From the NCBI RefSeq assembly GCF_000013405.1, contig NC_007759.1, positions 2,977,001 to 3,041,000 on the forward strand: a stretch of 64,000 nt of DNA, in the 5' to 3' direction. The DNA comes from Syntrophus aciditrophicus SB (lineage in GTDB: Bacteria > Desulfobacterota > Syntrophia > Syntrophales > Syntrophaceae). Made by a program: the position numbers and the translations under genes. Of the stretch, positions 1,134-11,254 are shown one piece after another; position 1 is the stretch's first letter; every line of letters starts with the position of its first letter. The notes under the pieces are model-generated. The model saw only the letters and a program-made list of their open reading frames with translations. It made no database searches and was not told where the DNA came from.

Positions 1134-3158
1134 ATGGTCAAAACTTCTCAACATCCAGTGACAAGAAACCGGTGTTCTGCCGGCAGTATTCTGATCGTGC
1201 TTGTTTTCTTTCTCCTGCTGGCCCTGCTGGTGGGCAGCAGCATCCTCTATTATGTCGTTCTTCGGGATCTGCCCAGCATTGCCGCATTGAAGGAATACCG
1301 GCCAAGCATCACCACCCGGGTTTACGCGGACAATAATGAACTGATCGACGAATTCTACATGGAAAATCGTAAGCTGGTCAGATTCGAGGAAATCCCATCC
1401 CTGGTCATCAAAGCCTTTCTGGCCGCTGAGGATGCCCGGTTTTTTGAACACCGCGGTTTTGACGTGCAGAGCATTTCCCGGGCCTTTTTCAGAAATCTCA
1501 GGGCCGGAAGGATTGTCCAGGGGGGCAGCACCATTACGCAACAGGTCGCCAAGGCCCTCTATCTGTCCTCGGAAAAAAGTTACAGCCGCAAAATCAAGGA
1601 AGCCGTCCTGGCCTATAAGATCGACCGTTCCCTTTCGAAAAAGGAAATTCTGAATCTCTATCTCAATCATATTTATCTTGGCCACGGCGCTTATGGGATT
1701 GAAGCGGCCTCTCAGGTTTATTTCGGAAAAAGAACGCGGGATCTTAAACTTTCCGAAGCCTCTCTCCTGGCCGGACTGCCCAAGGCGCCCTCCAGTTATG
1801 ATCCTTATACCAGTTATCAGCGGGCCCGGCAGCGTCAAACCTACGTCCTGAGCCGGATGGTGGAGGATGGCCACATCACCGAGGAAGAGAAGAACCATGT
1901 GCTGCAGACGCCTCTGCCCCTAAGATCGATCCGGCCCAGAGACCGGGTTGCCGCCTACTTTATCGAAAATATCCGCCGTTACATCCAGGGAAAGTACGGC
2001 AGTGACGCCTTGTATAAGGAGGGCCTTGAAGTATATACCACGCTGGACATCCGCACTCAGCAGGCAGCACGGGACGCCGTCGAACGGGGGCTCAAGGAAC
2101 TGGAAAGTCGGCAGGGCTACTCAAGGGATATGGTTCAGGGCGCCCTCCTTTGCATGGACGCCCGCACAGGGGCCATCCGGGCCATGGTCGGCGGCCGGGA
2201 CTTCAGCAAAAGCGAATTCAACCGTGCCACTCAGTCGCGAAGGCAGCCGGGTTCCGCCTTCAAACCCATTATCTATGCGGCGGCTTTCGATCGGGGAATG
2301 ACCCCGGCCACGGAGATTGTCGATGCTCCGCTTGCTTTCGAGGATGGGATGGGACATGCCTGGACACCTCAAAACTATGACGAGGAATTTCTGGGACCGA
2401 TCTCCCTGCGCACGGCCCTCGTTCAATCCCGCAACGTTGTCACGATCAAACTGCTGCAGGAAATCGGTGTGGATTACGCCATTGCCTATGCCGCCAACAT
2501 GGGGATTTCTTCACGGCTGGCCCGGGACCTGTCGCTTGCCCTGGGTTCCTCGGCGGTCACCCTGCAGGAGCTGGTACGGTCCTATGCCGTCCTGGCCAAT
2601 GGAGGGAAAATCGTGGAACCGTTCATGATCAAGAAGATCGTGGATCGGACGGGCTATGTCTTTGAAGAGCACACAATTAAAGTGGAGCAGGCCATCGATC
2701 CCCGCATCGCCTTTCTGACGACTTCCATTCTGCAGGATGCTGTGGAAAGCGGGACGGGGCAGCGCGTTAAAAGTATCGGCCGGCCTGTAGCAGGAAAAAC
2801 AGGAACAACCAACGACGTGCATGATGCCTGGTTTGTCGGTTTCACCCCCTCTCTTGTCACCGGCGTCTGGGTCGGCTTTGACCAGCAGCGCCCTCTGGGC
2901 AACCAGGAAGTCGGTGGCCTGGCCGCTGCGCCGATCTGGCTCTACTGTATGGAAAGGGCTTTAGCCAACAAGCCGGTGGAGAGTTTTCCCGTTCCGGATG
3001 GAATTGTCTTTGTCCGGCGAAACGAAGGCGCGCTTCCCGAGCCTTTTATTGACGGGACCGCCCCTCCCGACGCGATCCCCGCCGACGCGGAGGGAAGCAC
3101 CTCAACGGAGGAGGAGGGTGAAGAGGATCCCGGCTGGAAGTTCAGATTTCCTTTTTAG
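1134..3158 (+). CDS. Class A penicillin-binding protein (PBP1A family)
   Basis: A 674-residue bifunctional peptidoglycan synthase anchored by one membrane helix (about residues 17-42). The glycosyltransferase domain shows EDARFFEHRGFD (catalytic Glu 99), GGSTITQQVAK and KKEILNLYLN. The transpeptidase domain has the serine nucleophile in SAFK (Ser 374), an SRN motif and KTGTT. The length is at the short end for PBP1A, without a large accessory domain, and the tail is acidic. It starts one base after tatC. The enzyme polymerises lipid II and cross-links glycan strands in the periplasm. Confidence 0.92.
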   Translation: MVKTSQHPVTRNRCSAGSILIVLVFFLLLALLVGSSILYYVVLRDLPSIAALKEYRPSITTRVYADNNELIDEFYMENRKLVRFEEIPSLVIKAFLAAEDARFFEHRGFDVQSISRAFFRNLRAGRIVQGGSTITQQVAKALYLSSEKSYSRKIKEAVLAYKIDRSLSKKEILNLYLNHIYLGHGAYGIEAASQVYFGKRTRDLKLSEASLLAGLPKAPSSYDPYTSYQRARQRQTYVLSRMVEDGHITEEEKNHVLQTPLPLRSIRPRDRVAAYFIENIRRYIQGKYGSDALYKEGLEVYTTLDIRTQQAARDAVERGLKELESRQGYSRDMVQGALLCMDARTGAIRAMVGGRDFSKSEFNRATQSRRQPGSAFKPIIYAAAFDRGMTPATEIVDAPLAFEDGMGHAWTPQNYDEEFLGPISLRTALVQSRNVVTIKLLQEIGVDYAIAYAANMGISSRLARDLSLALGSSAVTLQELVRSYAVLANGGKIVEPFMIKKIVDRTGYVFEEHTIKVEQAIDPRIAFLTTSILQDAVESGTGQRVKSIGRPVAGKTGTTNDVHDAWFVGFTPSLVTGVWVGFDQQRPLGNQEVGGLAAAPIWLYCMERALANKPVESFPVPDGIVFVRRNEGALPEPFIDGTAPPDAIPADAEGSTSTEEEGEEDPGWKFRFPF

Positions 3159-3204
3159 GAGTTAAAAAACGACAAGGAAGTGCTTATTTATTTCAAGAAT
3201 TTTC

Positions 3205-3233
3205 TTGACAAGGGTTTTCTTTTTCGATAGAAA
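3205..3233 (+). promoter_or_regulatory. Candidate sigma-70-type promoter of the ilv operon
   Basis: TTGACA at 3205-3210 is a perfect -35. A 17-base spacer leads to TAGAAA (3228-3233), a 4/6 match to the -10. It lies about 50 bases before the leader peptide start and is the only good candidate between the penicillin-binding protein gene and ilvB. Confidence 0.5.
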
Positions 3234-3284
3234 ATACTGATAGTTTTTTGTGTGAACATAAGATTTTTAAAGGAAAATGTCGTC

Positions 3285-3365
3285 ATGATTAAAGCGATTA
3301 TTCTGATACTGGGCATCGTAACCGTAGTCACCGTACGGAAGGGGACTGTTGCTCGGTTTCTTTAG
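3285..3365 (+). CDS. ilv leader peptide (attenuation control)
   Basis: A 26-codon frame with the typical look of a branched-chain amino acid leader peptide: it begins MIKAIILILGIVTVVTV. Eleven of the first 17 residues are Ile, Leu or Val. AAGGA ends 10 bases before the ATG. The stop at 3363-3365 is followed within 20 bases by the first of two strong terminator hairpins, and the first ilvB gene starts at 3600. Leader peptides of this type sense charged tRNA by ribosome stalling; that role is inferred here. A four-codon frame starting at 3277 overlaps its start and is likely unimportant. Confidence 0.8.
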   Translation: MIKAIILILGIVTVVTVRKGTVARFL

Positions 3366-3402
3366 AAAAATGACATAAAGAAAGAAGAGCCGCAGGCCCC
3401 TT
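3339..3402 (+). promoter_or_regulatory. Possible anti-attenuation pairing segment of the ilv leader
   Basis: Bases 3339-3348 (AAGGGGACTG), inside codons 19-22 of the leader peptide, can pair with 3393-3402 (CAGGCCCCTT) with one mismatch. The second segment includes the top of the ascending arm of terminator 1. Pairing would block terminator 1 and free its descending arm to pair with the ascending arm of terminator 2. A ribosome stalled on the upstream Ile/Val codons would leave 3339-3348 free; one that reaches the stop would cover it. The base pairing is visible; the mechanism is inference. Confidence 0.45.
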
Positions 3403-3426
3403 AAAGGAACTGCGGCTCTTCTTTTT
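3381..3426 (+). terminator. ilv attenuator terminator 1
   Basis: Perfect 15-bp inverted repeat (3381-3395 with 3410-3424, core GAAGAGCCGCAG / CTGCGGCTCTTC) with a 14-base loop, running into CTTTTT. It starts 16 bases after the leader peptide stop. Confidence 0.85.
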
Positions 3427-3430
3427 ATGG

Positions 3431-3475
3431 AAAAGAGCCGCATTGCAGACAGAACGTGCGGCTCTTTTGTTTTTC
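3431..3475 (+). terminator. ilv attenuator terminator 2
   Basis: Perfect 12-bp stem (3431-3442 with 3457-3468, AAAAGAGCCGCA / TGCGGCTCTTTT) followed by TTTTGTTTTT. Its ascending arm is nearly identical to that of terminator 1, so the descending arm of terminator 1 (3410-3421) can instead pair with 3431-3442. That gives the mutually exclusive 1:2, 2:3 and 3:4 pairings of a classical attenuator. Confidence 0.85.
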
Positions 3476-3599
3476 GATATCCGTAATGCTTTTATAAAAA
3501 CTTAAAAAAATTTGCTTCCTCAAAAGGCTCCCCGCGGTGAAACGCCTTGCGTGGCCCTGAACAGGGAAGTGGTCCAGTCTGAAAGGAGTATTAAAAATC

Positions 3600-5273
3600 A
3601 TGGAAACCATCGGTGCGGACATTGTCCTGCAAATCCTTCAGGAGGAAGGTGTGGAGGCCATTTTCGGCTATCCCGGGGGAAACTCTCTGCCTCTGCACGA
3701 CCGGCTGCTGGGCAGCCCCATCCGTCATTACCTGACGCGGCATGAACAGGCCGCCGCGCATGCCGCTGACGGCTATGCCCGGGCTACCGGCAGAGTAGGT
3801 GTCTGCCTTTCCACGTCAGGACCGGGAGCGACCAACCTGGTGACGGGCATCGCGACCGCCCATATGGATTCATCCCCCATTGTCGCTCTGACCTGCCAGG
3901 TCAACACCAGCCTCATGGGACGGGACGCTTTTCAGGAAACAGACATAATCGGGATTACACTGCCGATAACGAAGCACAGCTATCTGGTGCATGATGTGAA
4001 CAATCTGGCCACCATCCTTCGCCAGTCCTTCAAACTGGCACGCTCGGGACGACCGGGACCGGTCCTGGTGGATATGCCCCGGGATATCCTGGCTGCACGG
4101 TGTGAACGGGCGGCTCCCCGACAGGAAGCACCCGAAGCCACAGTGGAGCAGAGTCCCTCGGATCGGCAACAACTGGAAAAAATTGCCAGGGCTCTGAATC
4201 AGAGTGAACGTCCCGTGATCATCATGGGCGGCGGCGTCAAGTTGAGCAACTCCTGCGATCTCATGCTTGGACTCATTGAAAAAGGCGGTATTCCCTTTAC
4301 CACCACGATGATGGGCGTGGGTTCGATCACTTCCGGAAACGGCTATGATCTGGGTTTCATCGGCACTCACGGCAATCAGCTGGCGAACAGCATCGTTCAT
4401 CAGTCTGATTTCATTCTGGCTGTCGGCATGCGCTTCTCGGATCGCAGCACTTCCCTCATTGATGAATTCGCCCCTCTGGCCACCATTGCCCAGACTGACA
4501 TCGATCCCACATCCATCGGCAAGAACGTTAAGGTTGCTTTCCCCTTTGTGGGTGAAATCCGGGAAACGATATCCGCCCTGGTAAAACTGGTGGAACGGAA
4601 AGAAAGGACGCCATGGATGGAGCGCATACAGCAGGAGCGGGAAACAACGGATAACTGCCTGCCCTACAAAGGGTGCGGAAAGGCAGGGCATTTTATCAGC
4701 CTGGTTCAGGACGCCATGCCCAGGGAAACCATCGCGATTTCCGATGTGGGCTTGAACCAGATCTGGACGATGAGAACCTGGAAGGCGCGCACCCCACGCA
4801 GCCTGATCACCAGCGGCGGCATGGGAACGATGGGATTCAGTGTACCGGCGGCAATGGGCGCCAAAATCGGCGCTCCTGATCGGTCGGTCGTAGCGATCTG
4901 TGGAGATGGCGGCTTCTACATGAATATTCAGGAACTGGCCACAATCAGCTATTACAATATCCCCGTGAAAATCATCGTCCTCAACAACGGCCACCTGGGG
5001 ATGGTTCGTCAACTTCAGGATCTGTTTTATGAATCCCGTTTCAGCACCGTGGATCTCGGCACGCATGTCGATCTGGTGACGGTTGCCAAAGGTTTCGGCA
5101 TCCCAGCCCGCAGAATTTCCGTGGACGACAGCCCCGAAGCGGCCCTTGCCGCCATGGCAGGCGCGGAAGGGCCTTATATGCTGGAGGTGATGGTTGACCC
5201 GAACGATTATGTGTTCCCCATCATCCCTCCCGGCCATCCGAATATATCGATGATCCACGGCAAGATCTGCTGA
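3600..5273 (+). CDS. ilvB: Acetolactate synthase large subunit, copy 1
   Basis: A 557-residue thiamine-diphosphate enzyme that condenses two pyruvates to acetolactate, or pyruvate and 2-ketobutyrate to acetohydroxybutyrate, the first shared step of Val/Leu/Ile synthesis. Three ThDP-family domains are recognisable: GYPGG near residue 24, the HEQ motif carrying the ThDP-activating Glu, and a C-terminal GDGGFYMNIQELAT...NNGHLGMV pyrophosphate/Mg site. AAGGAG lies 9 bases before the ATG. A small subunit follows at 5359 and a second ilvBN pair after that. This copy differs from copy 2 in several conserved stretches (GNSLPLHD versus GSVIDLYD), so it is not a recent duplicate. Confidence 0.93.
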   Translation: METIGADIVLQILQEEGVEAIFGYPGGNSLPLHDRLLGSPIRHYLTRHEQAAAHAADGYARATGRVGVCLSTSGPGATNLVTGIATAHMDSSPIVALTCQVNTSLMGRDAFQETDIIGITLPITKHSYLVHDVNNLATILRQSFKLARSGRPGPVLVDMPRDILAARCERAAPRQEAPEATVEQSPSDRQQLEKIARALNQSERPVIIMGGGVKLSNSCDLMLGLIEKGGIPFTTTMMGVGSITSGNGYDLGFIGTHGNQLANSIVHQSDFILAVGMRFSDRSTSLIDEFAPLATIAQTDIDPTSIGKNVKVAFPFVGEIRETISALVKLVERKERTPWMERIQQERETTDNCLPYKGCGKAGHFISLVQDAMPRETIAISDVGLNQIWTMRTWKARTPRSLITSGGMGTMGFSVPAAMGAKIGAPDRSVVAICGDGGFYMNIQELATISYYNIPVKIIVLNNGHLGMVRQLQDLFYESRFSTVDLGTHVDLVTVAKGFGIPARRISVDDSPEAALAAMAGAEGPYMLEVMVDPNDYVFPIIPPGHPNISMIHGKIC

Positions 5274-5358
5274 GAAGAAAGCGTCTGGTTTTCTTATCCG
5301 ACAGGAACAAACCAGGCAGGGCGGTCACAGTGAAATCAATAGAGGAGAAAGATCAGAA

Positions 5359-5859
5359 ATGAGCATTGAAGAACGTACCATCACGATCCTGGTTAAAAAT
5401 GAACCGGGGGTGCTGTCGCGGGTCGCGGGAGTTTTCAGCGGACGGGGATATAACATCAAGACCCTGTGCGTCGCGGAAACGACGAATCCGGAAATCTCGC
5501 GGATCACTTTAACCAGCAATGCCGATGCGGATTTTACGGAAAAGATCAAAAAGCAGCTTGATAAACTGGTTGATGTCGTGGATGTCCTGGACTACACAGG
5601 CGAACGTTTTCTTAAAAGGGAAATGATGCTGATCGGTCTGAGAATTACCCCGGATCGCTATGCGGAACTTCTCCAGGCCGTGAACACTTTCGGATGCCGG
5701 ATCATAGGTATGCAGCCGGATTATTACATCATCGAGACATCGGGCCGCCGGTCTGAAAATGATGCAGTTTTTAAGTATTTTCAAACTTTCGATGTCGAAA
5801 TGATGAACCGGACCGGTTCCATCGCCCTTCCGCGGCACCCGCAGAAGGATTCCGCATGA
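5359..5859 (+). CDS. ilvN: Acetolactate synthase small (regulatory) subunit, copy 1
   Basis: A 166-residue ACT-domain protein of the IlvN/IlvH family. The N-terminal ACT domain reads TITILVKNEPGVLSRVAGVFSGRGYNI, the usual ligand-binding face for valine feedback inhibition. The C-terminal half (REMMLIGLRI onward) is the second IlvH domain. It has its own AGGAGA site 12 bases before the ATG. It lies 85 bases after its large subunit and should assemble with it, though exchange with the copy 2 large subunit cannot be excluded. Confidence 0.93.
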   Translation: MSIEERTITILVKNEPGVLSRVAGVFSGRGYNIKTLCVAETTNPEISRITLTSNADADFTEKIKKQLDKLVDVVDVLDYTGERFLKREMMLIGLRITPDRYAELLQAVNTFGCRIIGMQPDYYIIETSGRRSENDAVFKYFQTFDVEMMNRTGSIALPRHPQKDSA

Positions 5860-5932
5860 GGACGAAGGACTCTGCAGATTCCTGGAAAGAAGAATTTTTA
5901 TTTCATAAATTAACAGTCAGGGGGTATTTCTC

Positions 5933-7639
5933 GTGAAACTCACCGGATCACAAGTCCTTTTTAAAGCCTTGCGGGAAGAAAAAGTAGATACTATTTTCGG
6001 TTATCCCGGGGGCTCCGTCATCGATCTTTATGATGAATTGTTCCATCAGGAAGGAATCAAACACTATCTGGTGCGGCATGAACAGGGGGCCGTCCACGCC
6101 GCGGACGGTTATGCGCGCGCTACCGGCAAAGTCGGGGTCTGCCTGGTGACTTCCGGTCCCGGCGCCACCAACACCGTAACCGGCATTGCCAATGCCTATG
6201 CGGATTCCATCCCGATCGTCATCCTGACCGGGCAGGTTCCCACCCATATGATCGGCAAGGATGCCTTTCAGGAAGTGGACATTACAGGCATTACCCGTCC
6301 CTGCAGTAAGCATAACTTTCTGGTCAGAAAAATCGATGACCTGGGCCGTACTATAAGAGAAGCCTTCTACATCGCGCACAGCGGGCGTCCCGGTCCCGTT
6401 CTGGTCGATATCCCTAAAGATATTCTACAGGGAACGCTGGAAGAAACAGAGCTTTTCATGGAAATTCATCTGCCTCCGGAGCCGCCCAAAGAGCCGATCG
6501 ACGAGGCCTGCGCCGCAGCCCTGACCATGATCCGGACCGCACGCAAACCGGTTATTTTCGCCGGCGGCGGGGTTCTGCGGGGAAAAGCCGTTTCCGAGCT
6601 GATGACCTTTGCCAATTGCATCCATGCTCCGGTCACGGCATCGCTCATGGGACTGGGAGCTTTTCCCGGAACTCACCCGCGCTGGCTGGGCATGCTGGGC
6701 ATGCACGGAACTTATTACGCCAACATGGCCGTCAGTCACTGTGACCTGTTGATTGCCGTGGGTGTGCGCTTTGACGACCGTGTCACCTCCAAGGTGGCGG
6801 AATTCGCGCCTCACGCCAAAATTATTCATATCGACATCGATCCCGTTTCAATCAACAAGATCGTCAAGTCTCATGTTTCTATCATCAGCGACTGCCGGGA
6901 AGCTCTGCAGCGTCTTCTTTCCATGGCCGGTGGCGAAGTTCTGCTTTCCGCGGATCAAACCCGGGAATGGCTGGAGCAGATTGAAAAATGGAAGAAGGCG
7001 GTTCCTCTGAGCTATTGCCGCAGCGCGAAGATCAAGCCTCAGTATGTCATCGAAAAGCTCTACGAACTGACGCGGGGGGAGGCCATCATTACCACTGAAG
7101 TCGGTCAGAATCAGATGTGGGCAGCCCAGTTCTACCGGTTCGATCACCCCGATACCTTCATCTCCTCGGGCGGACTGGGAACGATGGGATTCGGGCTTCC
7201 GGCGGCGATTGGCGCCCAGGTAGCCTTTCCGGACCGGTTGGTCGTCGACATTGCCGGAGACGGCAGCATTCAGATGAACATCCAGGAACTGGCTACCGCC
7301 GTGCATTACAATCTGCCGGTCAAGGTCGTCATCCTGAACAACGGCTTCCTGGGAATGGTCCGGCAGTGGCAGGAAATGTTTTACGGCAGACGCTATTCCC
7401 AGACCGAGATGAAACAGGCGCTGGATTTCGTCAAACTGGCCGAGGCATTCGGTGCCGTCGGGTTAAGGGCCACAAAACCGGAAGAAGTGGAAGAGGTTCT
7501 GCGCAAGGGGCTGGAAACTCCGAGGGCCGTCATGATGGATTTCCACGTGGAACCGGAAGAGCAGGTATACCCCATGGTCAGCCCGGGTGCGGGACTGACG
7601 GACATGAAGCTGGGAAACCTGCGTCGGGATGCCGATTAA
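5933..7639 (+). CDS. ilvB: Acetolactate synthase large subunit, copy 2
   Basis: A 568-residue acetohydroxyacid synthase catalytic subunit that starts at a GTG behind CAGGGGG. It has the classical family sequence: FGYPGGSVIDLYDEL, HEQGAVHAADGYARATGKVG and the ThDP/Mg motif GDGSIQMNIQELAT ending NNGFLGMVRQWQ. It is closer to textbook IlvB/IlvI than copy 1. The second small subunit gene follows after 52 bases. Two complete ilvBN pairs in tandem suggest isozymes with different feedback or 2-ketobutyrate preference, which the sequence alone cannot decide. Confidence 0.94.
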   Translation: MKLTGSQVLFKALREEKVDTIFGYPGGSVIDLYDELFHQEGIKHYLVRHEQGAVHAADGYARATGKVGVCLVTSGPGATNTVTGIANAYADSIPIVILTGQVPTHMIGKDAFQEVDITGITRPCSKHNFLVRKIDDLGRTIREAFYIAHSGRPGPVLVDIPKDILQGTLEETELFMEIHLPPEPPKEPIDEACAAALTMIRTARKPVIFAGGGVLRGKAVSELMTFANCIHAPVTASLMGLGAFPGTHPRWLGMLGMHGTYYANMAVSHCDLLIAVGVRFDDRVTSKVAEFAPHAKIIHIDIDPVSINKIVKSHVSIISDCREALQRLLSMAGGEVLLSADQTREWLEQIEKWKKAVPLSYCRSAKIKPQYVIEKLYELTRGEAIITTEVGQNQMWAAQFYRFDHPDTFISSGGLGTMGFGLPAAIGAQVAFPDRLVVDIAGDGSIQMNIQELATAVHYNLPVKVVILNNGFLGMVRQWQEMFYGRRYSQTEMKQALDFVKLAEAFGAVGLRATKPEEVEEVLRKGLETPRAVMMDFHVEPEEQVYPMVSPGAGLTDMKLGNLRRDAD

Positions 7640-7691
7640 AGGAACTTCAACTCCGCCCATTCATTTTACTGACAGAAAGGTTTGCTGAAAA

Positions 7692-8165
7692 ATGGAAATC
7701 AAGAAGAGTGTCATCTCAATTCTGGCCAGCAACAAGCCTGACGTCCTGGCCCGTATCGCCGGCACGTTCAGTGGACGCGGCTTCAATATCGACAGCATCA
7801 CAGCCAATGTGACGGGCAATCCCCGGATTACCAGGATTATCATCACGACTCAAGGAAACCAGGACACCATCATCAAGATCGAAAAAGAACTCAACCGTCT
7901 CGTCGATGTTCATCAGGTCACGGATCTGACCAGCCTGGATCTGCCCCTCCGGGAGATGATCCTGATTCGTATGCCGATGACGGGAGAAAACCACGAAAAA
8001 ATTATGGAAATCGTTGACAGATACCATGGGGAAGTGATAGAAACCGGCTCCGGATATGGCATCCTTGAGCTGACGGGCAAAAAGGAAGACATGGACAATG
8101 CCCTGTCGTCCCTGGAACTTCTGGGAATTGATGACTTTGTAAGAACGGGCAGTGTAACGCTTTAG
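7692..8165 (+). CDS. ilvN: Acetolactate synthase small (regulatory) subunit, copy 2
   Basis: A 157-residue IlvN/IlvH-type ACT protein: VISILASNKPDVLARIAGTFSGRGFNIDSI in the first ACT domain and REMILIRMPM at the start of the second half. AGAAAGG lies upstream of the ATG. It sits directly behind the copy 2 large subunit, its likely partner, and 234 bases before ilvC. The 233-base gap that follows holds no convincing gene or terminator. Confidence 0.93.
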   Translation: MEIKKSVISILASNKPDVLARIAGTFSGRGFNIDSITANVTGNPRITRIIITTQGNQDTIIKIEKELNRLVDVHQVTDLTSLDLPLREMILIRMPMTGENHEKIMEIVDRYHGEVIETGSGYGILELTGKKEDMDNALSSLELLGIDDFVRTGSVTL

Positions 8166-8398: not shown

Positions 8399-9445
8399 AT
8401 GGCAAAAATTGATTTCGGCGGTGTAGTGGAAGATGTCATCACTCTGGAAGAATTTACCCTGGAAAAGGCCAGGGAGGTATTGAAGAACGAAGTGATCGCC
8501 GTGGTCGGTTACGGAATTCAGGGGCGAGGCCAGTCCTTGAACATGCGCGACAACGGAATAAAGGTCATTGTCGGTGAAGGCCCATACTCATGGAACCAGG
8601 CCGTAGAAGACGGCTTTGTCCCCGGCGAGACGCTCTTTTCTCCGGAAGAGGCGGCAAAACGGGCCACCATCATCCAGTATCTGCTTTCCGACGCAGGGCA
8701 GAAGGAGATGTGGCCGGTGATGAAAAACTGCCTTCAGCCGGGCAACGCTCTGTATTTCTCCCATGGATTTTCTATTGTTTACAAGGAACAGACCGGCGTG
8801 ATTCCGCCGGCGGATATCGATGTCATTCTGGTGGCCCCAAAAGGATCCGGACGCACCGTGCGGACGAATTTCCTGGACGGCAGCGGCATCAATTCCAGTT
8901 ATGCGGTATTTCAGGATGCAACGGGCAAGGCCCTGGAACGTACCCTGGCGGTAGGCATCGCCATTGGTTCCGGTTATCTTTTTCCCACCACCTTTGAAAA
9001 GGAGGTTTACAGCGATCTCACCGGCGAACGGGGTGTCCTTATGGGCTGCCTGGCTGGAGTGATGGAGGCTCAGTACAACGTACTCCGCAGGAACGGCCAC
9101 AGCCCCAGCGAGGCCTTCAACGAAACCGTGGAGGAGCTGACCCAGAGCCTCATCCGCCTGGTAGCGGAAAACGGCATGGACTGGATGTATTCCAATTGCA
9201 GCGCCACCGCCCAGCGAGGCGCCCTGGACTGGAAGGATCGCTTCCGTGACGCGGTCGCCCCCGTGTTTGACGCCCTTTACGAAAGCGTGGTTACCGGCAA
9301 GGAAACCCAGATCGTGCTCGATGCCGGCAAAGATCCCAATTATCGGGAAAAGTTGCAGAAAGAGCTGGAAGTCATGCACAACAGCGAAATGTGGCGCGCC
9401 GGAGCCGCTGTGCGTGATCTGCGACCGGAACGACGCAAAAAATAG
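8399..9445 (+). CDS. ilvC: Ketol-acid reductoisomerase
   Basis: A 348-residue NAD(P)H-dependent enzyme that isomerises and reduces acetolactate to dihydroxyisovalerate. The Rossmann motif is GYGIQGRGQSLNMRD near residue 38. The C-terminal knotted helical domain holds the Mg ligands (EVYSDLTGERGVLMGCLAGVMEAQY). AGAAGGAGG precedes the ATG. The N-terminus (IDFGGVVEDVITLEEFTL) and GxGxQGxGQSLNMRDNG resemble what I recall of the Bacteroides-type branch more than the usual proteobacterial class I enzyme; a tree would be needed to confirm this. Confidence 0.94.
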   Translation: MAKIDFGGVVEDVITLEEFTLEKAREVLKNEVIAVVGYGIQGRGQSLNMRDNGIKVIVGEGPYSWNQAVEDGFVPGETLFSPEEAAKRATIIQYLLSDAGQKEMWPVMKNCLQPGNALYFSHGFSIVYKEQTGVIPPADIDVILVAPKGSGRTVRTNFLDGSGINSSYAVFQDATGKALERTLAVGIAIGSGYLFPTTFEKEVYSDLTGERGVLMGCLAGVMEAQYNVLRRNGHSPSEAFNETVEELTQSLIRLVAENGMDWMYSNCSATAQRGALDWKDRFRDAVAPVFDALYESVVTGKETQIVLDAGKDPNYREKLQKELEVMHNSEMWRAGAAVRDLRPERRKK

Positions 9446-9592: not shown

Positions 9593-11254
9593 ATGCGCAG
9601 TGATATCATGAAAAAAGGACTTGAAAAGGCGCCTCATCGATCTCTGTTCAAGGCAATGGGCTATACGGATGAAGAAATTGCCCGCCCGCTGATCGGTGTT
9701 GTCAACGCCGCTAACGAAATCATCCCCGGTCATATCCATCTGGATCGGATCGTGGAGGATGTCAAGGCGGGCATCCGGATGGCAGGTGGAACGCCGGTGG
9801 AGTTTCCCGCCATCGGGATCTGCGACGGCATCGCCATGGGCCATCTGGGTATGAAATATTCCCTGGCCAGCCGGGAATTGATCGCCGACTCCACAGAAGC
9901 CATGGTCATGGCCCATCCCTTTGACGGCCTGGTTCTTGTTCCTAACTGTGACAAAATCATTCCCGGAATGCTCATGGCCGCCCTGCGCCTCAATATTCCA
10001 TCAATTTTTGTCAGCGGCGGCCCCATGCTGGCCGGACGTCTCGATGGAAAGTCTGTGGATCTCATCAGCGTCTTCGAAGGAGTCGGCGCCGTGAAGGCGG
10101 GCAAGATGACGGAAGAGCAGCTGAAGGCCCTGGAGGACTGCGCCTGTCCCGGATGCGGATCCTGTTCCGGAATGTATACGGCCAATTCCATGAACTGCGT
10201 GACGGAGGCACTGGGCCTGGGTCTGCCGGGAAACGGAACGATTCCTGCGATTCATGCGGCGCGACGGCGCCTTGCTAAAGAGGCGGGAGTCCGAATCATG
10301 GATCTGGTCTCCAAAAACATCCGGCCTCGGGACATCGCCACGCTCGATGCCTTCAAAAATGCCCTCGCTGTGGATATGGCCCTGGGCTGCTCCACCAATA
10401 CGGTGCTGCACATCCCGGCGATTGCCCACGAAGCGGGAATTCGACTGGATCTTGACCTTTTCAACGAAATCAGTGCAAGGACGCCGAATCTCTGTCATCT
10501 CAGTCCGGCCGGCCCCCACCATATCGAGGAACTTGATGCCGCCGGCGGGATTCAGGCGGTCATGAAAGTCATCAGTAAACTGGGGGTGATCCAGGAGTCG
10601 GCTTTAACCGTATCCGGCAGGACAGTTGGAGAAAACCTGGAAAAGGCACGTGTTCTCAATGAGGAGGTGATCCGCCCATTGGACCGTGCCTATCGGCAGG
10701 AGGGCGGCATCGCCATTCTCCGAGGAAATCTTGCTCCCGATGGCGCGGTGGTCAAACAGTCCGGAGTGCTGCCGGAAATGATGATCAATGAAGGAACGGC
10801 TCGCGTCTTCGATTCCGAGGATGAAGCGATTGCCGCAATCCTCGGCGGTAAAATTGTCGCGGGAGATATTGTGGTCATCCGCTACGAAGGTCCGAAAGGA
10901 GGTCCGGGAATGCGGGAAATGCTGAGCCCCACCTCGGCCATCGCGGGCATGGGTCTGGATACCTCGGTCGCTCTGCTTACGGATGGACGTTTCAGCGGAG
11001 GCACCCGCGGCGCCGCCATCGGGCACATTTCTCCGGAGGCCGCGGAAGGAGGCCCGATTGCCCTGATCCGGGAGGGAGACTGGATCGCCATCAACATCCC
11101 GGAAAAAACATTGACCTTGAAGGTTGACCCGGAAGAACTGGAAAAGAGAAAGCAGGAATGGAAACCCAAAGCATCACAGAACCTGACCGGTTATCTGGCC
11201 CGTTACGCAAGGCTTGTCACTTCCGCAAGCACGGGCGCCATCTTTAAGGATTAA
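9593..11254 (+). CDS. ilvD: Dihydroxy-acid dehydratase
   Basis: A 553-residue iron-sulfur dehydratase that converts 2,3-dihydroxy acids to 2-keto acids for Val, Ile and Leu synthesis. Cluster ligands are visible in [10 protein letters not shown] and in [20 protein letters not shown]; the C-terminal half has GFSGGTRG-like [28 protein letters not shown] precedes the ATG. Length is normal. It is separated from ilvC by a strong terminator, so its expression may be uncoupled from the attenuated upstream operon. Confidence 0.95.

Follow-up and report, generated by a model that had tools for sequence, protein, structure and literature searches.

The ilv operon and its leader region

The window is a 64,000-nucleotide stretch of DNA covering positions 2977001-3041000 of the 3,179,300-base single-contig genome of Syntrophus aciditrophicus SB. 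A set of ilv genes was identified on its forward strand in the order ilvB-ilvN-ilvB-ilvN-ilvC-ilvD. The first ilvB gene (3600-5273), encoding the large subunit of acetolactate synthase, matches NCBIfam model TIGR00118 with 635.7 bits against a cutoff of 538. It is followed by ilvN/ilvH (5359-5859), encoding the small subunit, and by second copies of ilvB (5933-7639) and ilvN/ilvH (7692-8165). The last two genes are ilvC (8399-9445), encoding ketol-acid reductoisomerase, and ilvD (9593-11254), encoding dihydroxy-acid dehydratase. The two adjoining ilvB-ilvN pairs (3600-8165) differ in type, with IlvB copies sharing approximately 42% identity, and one putative attenuator serves both.

The gene upstream of the leader, named as a penicillin-binding protein gene from its translation, ends at 3158. 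A probable sigma-70 promoter (3205-3235, forward strand) follows, with TTGACA at 3205-3210 and a weak -10 element, GAAAAT, at 3230-3235. Of 43 ilv loci, 42 have an exact TTGACA ahead of the leader. A Shine-Dalgarno-like AAGGA (3270-3274) precedes the leader peptide ORF (3285-3365), which starts with ATG at 3285, ends with TAG at 3363-3365 and comprises 26 codons, MIKAIILILGIVTVVTVRKGTVARFL. Codons 5-17 are the putative control codons, which specify Ile, Leu and Val and are rich in the rare GTA.

Folding of the leader RNA reveals two terminators between the leader and the first gene, both on the forward strand and both conserved. Terminator T1 (3379-3426) is formed by segments beta (3379-3395) and gamma (3410-3426), and its stem has a folding energy of -32.6 kcal/mol (z -6.65). 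Terminator T2 (3431-3475) is formed by delta (3431-3443) and epsilon (3456-3468), with -19.4 kcal/mol (z -3.24), and is followed by TTTTGTTTTT, the T-run extending to approximately 3475. The whole region 3285-3480 has a z-score of -6.49, and none of 200 shuffled sequences was equally stable. A scan for consensus terminators and promoters listed neither these forward-strand terminators nor the promoter, although folding does reveal the terminators; the scanner missed them because the T-runs lie partly within the stems or after a G.

Two further pairings compete with these terminators. The main one joins segment alpha, the last leader codons (codons 19-26 plus the stop, 3339-3364), to the 5' arm of T1 (beta, here 3376-3402) by 22 bp at -28.9 kcal/mol (z -5.15). 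The arms of T1 and T2 have AAGAGCCGCA/TGCGGCTCTT in common, so that gamma can also pair with delta as a second antiterminator (3411-3443, approximately 3411-3420 with 3434-3443). This pairing is seen on folding 3404-3477, at -21.5 kcal/mol with a z-score of only -1.62. An earlier sequence-only reading had described an Ile/Leu/Val-rich 26-codon leader followed by two terminators with nearly identical arms and ends near 3426 and 3475, and possible pairing of the second arm of T1 with the first arm of T2, all of which sequence and folding bear out. That reading also paired codons 19-22 with the upper part of the first stem, which was correct but understated, as the alpha:beta pairing extends into the stop codon. 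The minimum free energy structure of 3338-3430 contains T1, which means that T1 wins at equilibrium even with a stalled ribosome and that the switch must be kinetic. A small hairpin within alpha (3339-3363), taken from the global fold, was dropped as a general element, as inspection of the alignment showed that it is not conserved.

Conservation and coevolution of the leader in Syntrophales

Protein searches with IlvB retrieved 44 distinct upstream regions from Syntrophales, and a search for IlvB relatives in viral contigs found none. The order of leader ORF with an Ile/Leu/Val run, T1 and T2 before ilvB is present in 42 of the 44 loci, most of which have a leader C-terminus resembling G-T/A-A-A-R-x-L. 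One of the exceptions carries T1 only, and in the other the attenuator lies approximately 330 nt upstream. Relatives share the leader, the antiterminator and the two terminators, indicating that their arrangement is not due to chance. The sequence-only reading had called for this comparison and had named loss of the frame with retention of the hairpins as evidence against an attenuator; frame and hairpins are instead kept together.

T1 begins 13-36 nt beyond the leader stop in the ilv loci, roughly at the ribosome edge. The ribosome footprint is 12 nt (PMC4833913). T2 ends approximately 20-35 nt ahead of the ilvB start in most relatives, too short a gap to hold a promoter; expression therefore requires overcoming T2. 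GTA makes up 69% of the Val codons in the leaders of relatives versus 8% in the window genes, as expected for stall codons.

The plan of alpha:beta is fixed, with GGGG.x.CCGC.x.GCUC facing GAGC.x.GCGG.x.CCCC, and its extension by the codons up to the stop varies together with the partner strand, for example TGTATCTTT with AAAGATACA and TTCCTATG with CATAGGAA. Across the ilv loci, alpha:beta has a mean energy of -29.9 kcal/mol and a mean z-score of -4.8, with z below -2 in 38 of 39. Paired cells account for 96% of the alpha:beta alignment, including double changes, for example from CG to UA. In a swap test, native partners scored -32.8 and swapped partners -28.4 (p 6e-8, with related sequences that are not independent); relatedness inflates the p-values of all swap tests reported here. 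In sequence comparison, alpha:beta is conserved and covarying in approximately 40 Syntrophales loci and shows the strongest coevolution of the pairings. The T1 and T2 stems likewise keep pairing across relatives.

The gamma:delta pairing is kept at 90%, with some double changes that mostly fall in one block within the genus Syntrophus. Within the ilv set, its swap test is not significant (p=0.12). When partners were swapped in a wider set of 123 attenuators, the energy was -15.4 versus -16.9 for native pairs (p 4e-10, inflated by kinship). Native pairs are also more stable than pairs with generic terminator arms from the same loci (-16.9 vs -9.9 kcal/mol; 119 of 123 attenuators). A directional wobble test of gamma:delta, which at first gave counts of 122 vs 53, was discarded after the difference vanished in the stem core (44 vs 47). 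Judged by the sequence alignments, covariation of gamma:delta is weak, and it supports this pairing less well than it supports alpha:beta.

Distribution of twin-terminator leaders in Desulfobacterota

A covariance model (R1) built on the ilv twin-terminator region had matches in 144 of 155 Syntrophales genomes and in 101 of 395 genomes of the phylum Desulfobacterota. Within Syntrophales, the weaker matches may represent trp or other attenuators or be due to chance. In a control set of Pseudomonadota, R1 matched 16 of 200 genomes with weak scores (best 3.5e-5); inspection of 15 loci showed ordinary terminators lacking a matching leader, and these were rejected as attenuators. Matches on the minus strand were also rejected, being palindromic hairpins read backwards.

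Outside ilv, the R1 matches are twin-terminator leaders with a peptide that fits the downstream gene. Trp runs (WWWW) precede trpE (35 loci, nearly all) and are also found before TrpB-like and trpD genes. Phe/Tyr runs precede the AroG-type DAHP synthase and ADTH synthase, the other type of DAHP synthase is preceded by Trp or Phe/Tyr runs, and Leu runs precede leuA. The genome of S. aciditrophicus itself carries a second example on the minus strand (1901791-1901932), where the Trp leader MRETDFIINMNWWWQASIQGFVRR and twin terminators lie before trpE. The twin layout had been singled out as the unusual feature of the ilv leader; it is real, but it is common across Desulfobacterota and not peculiar to the ilv operon.

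Single-terminator versions exist as well. A survey of trp leaders was based on TrpE protein searches because R1 was built on twins. Among the 70 trpE upstream regions read, approximately 22 have a Trp leader with two terminators and approximately 11 a Trp leader with one, and the remainder are without a recognizable Trp leader and terminator. The existence of single-terminator trp attenuators indicates that T2 is not indispensable.

In seven Syntrophales loci, a gene for a LivK-like ABC substrate-binding protein is preceded by a Phe-rich leader (FFSFF, FFGFF) and twin terminators, which predicts that phenylalanine controls a transporter whose annotation is of the branched-chain type. Three other Syntrophales loci have Phe-containing leaders (FGFF, CFF) and twin terminators before acyl-CoA ligase genes, possibly linking aromatic metabolism to the supply of Phe. 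Genes of the same DAHP synthase type carry Trp-run leaders at L158, L159, L166 and L176 and Phe/Tyr-run leaders at L178, L186 and L248, and the leader type is a possible label for end-product specificity. At four loci, Trp-run leaders stand before TrpB-like (TrpB2) genes, which supports the participation of TrpB2 in tryptophan synthesis. Leaders of this kind may allow regulation to be deduced from sequence for genes not yet studied, such as the LivK-like transporters with Phe-rich leaders and the DAHP synthase isozymes with Trp- or Phe/Tyr-type leaders.

Proposed mechanism and relation to known attenuators

Co-transcriptional folding was simulated by folding the growing RNA with a simple home-made barrier model that uses one assumed threshold. 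For the window RNA, a ribosome held at the control codons leads to alpha:beta and subsequently gamma:delta, and no terminator is formed; a ribosome positioned on the stop codon leads to both terminators. Folding under these two ribosome positions had been proposed in the sequence-only reading, and the outcome agrees with it. The untranslated window RNA forms neither terminator. Across 39 ilv loci, T1 forms in 2 and T2 in 15 when starved, and in 34 and 33, respectively, when replete. The independent set of 31 trp loci behaves similarly: under starvation T1 forms at 1 locus and T2 at 11, and under replete conditions at 29 and 30, respectively. Among untranslated leaders, T1 forms in 3 of 14 and is absent in 11. 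In this model, control of T1 is robust, and control of T2 is seen in about two thirds of loci.

The leader very probably represents an attenuator of transcription that is mediated by the ribosome, is built from five RNA segments and controls two terminators together. A shortage of Ile-, Leu- or Val-tRNA would stall the ribosome in codons 5-15 of the leader, leaving alpha free to pair with beta before gamma is made. Single-stranded gamma would then capture delta, blocking T2 too, and the polymerase would read into ilvBN-ilvBN-ilvCD. When amino acids are plentiful, the ribosome would run to the stop codon and hide alpha; beta:gamma (T1) would form and terminate, and polymerases leaking past would meet T2 (delta:epsilon). 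T2 would thus be a second stop ganged to T1, and one stall could disarm both. Comparative and folding evidence supports the earlier interpretation as a leader-peptide attenuator, with both terminators under one control. The switch itself needs revision, as alpha:beta is predicted to be the main antiterminator and not a side pairing, and gamma:delta is retained as a second step.

A simpler scheme, which we consider rather unlikely but worth weighing, is that T1 alone regulates, T2 is a leaky fail-safe with a similar stem and gamma:delta has no function. In favor of this scheme, T2 is the weaker of the two terminators and, in the starved simulations, was still formed at a third of the loci. However, most relatives have T2 immediately ahead of the gene, where most starved transcripts would be lost to a second terminator that is constitutive. 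Covariation of gamma:delta in the ilv set, by swap test and core wobble counts, would be compatible with a functionless pairing, but the complementarity of delta to gamma greatly exceeds that of generic terminator arms. Single-terminator Trp leaders presumably work without T2, and yet the twin layout is kept in different pathways and across the phylum.

Sensing of the amino acids by a T-box, a riboswitch or a leader that binds a protein, with the peptide being incidental, is highly improbable. Some ilv and trp leaders of other phyla use T-boxes. Nevertheless, the covariance models of Rfam release 15 gave no match at the gathering cutoff in the window, and no T-box or specifier structure matched up to E=1 over 3150-3610. 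The best amino-acid leader family, Thr_leader, scored 21.7 bits against a cutoff of 55 and was rejected together with BTnc231 and sau-5971, which also lie far under their cutoffs. Moreover, the leader residues fit the pathway, and the leader codons themselves build the antiterminator. Tandem terminators after genes are common, but an ordinary tandem terminator of the penicillin-binding protein gene followed by a chance frame can hardly account for the TTGACA element between that gene and the leader, the conserved frame with rare control codons and the pathway-matched leaders elsewhere.

By every feature testable through sequence comparison and modelling, the ilvB element is a leader-peptide attenuator. 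Its ORF, with a Shine-Dalgarno-like site, a conserved Ile/Leu/Val-rich frame and GTA enrichment, is predicted to be translated; two terminators separate it from the first gene; and conservation, coevolution and simulation of alpha:beta point to an antiterminator that excludes T1. The five-segment attenuator may also belong to a modular ganged platform in Desulfobacterota, in which the leader sense is swappable (ilv, leu, trp, aro, Phe-rich transport or acyl-CoA ligase) and the five-segment chain with two serial terminators is kept, a generalization that we regard as plausible but somewhat short of an even chance. If true, the off state would be tighter than with a single terminator, and an untranslated leader would lead to read-through rather than termination.

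Attenuation is a textbook mechanism that has been studied mainly in enteric bacteria, where the leader-peptide attenuators of ilv, leu, trp, his and thr are known, for example E. coli ilvGMEDA and trp. The ilvB twin leader resembles these in its short peptide rich in the end product, its alternative hairpins and its intrinsic terminator before a biosynthetic operon. Enteric attenuators have one terminator, whereas the ilvB leader has two that share arms. The untranslated enteric trp leader terminates, whereas untranslated twin leaders are mostly read through in the simulation.

The Corynebacterium ilvBNC attenuator or ilvB-II motif is a single-terminator system before ilvB (PMC10272879, PMC11109978, PMC11857589). 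It shares with the twin leader an Ile/Leu/Val uORF and an antiterminator overlapping the terminator, but it has one terminator and an anti-antiterminator hairpin (H1) and is restricted to Corynebacterium; no relation between ilvB-II and the twin element was found in Rfam. The rimP-leader has tandem terminators in some Gammaproteobacteria (PMC2965389), with the second terminator upstream of the first and a potential antiterminator. It lies before rimP, is not described as an amino-acid leader peptide, and has hairpins with inverse motifs instead of shared arms. Tandem attenuators in Salmonella mgtCBR (PMC3641672) also place two attenuation events within one leader, but these use two ORFs and two signals without intrinsic terminators, in contrast to one ORF and two intrinsic terminators in the twin leader. 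No description of twin attenuators in Desulfobacterota was found in the open literature, and an earlier account in older subscription papers is possible. Collectively, sequence comparison and modelling suggest that the two-stop design is a new and apparently undescribed, phylum-wide variant of the classical mechanism. From its conservation across phylum and pathways, it seems that placing terminators in series under a single switch curbs the leak of a single terminator, and many natural twin and single versions are available for comparison.
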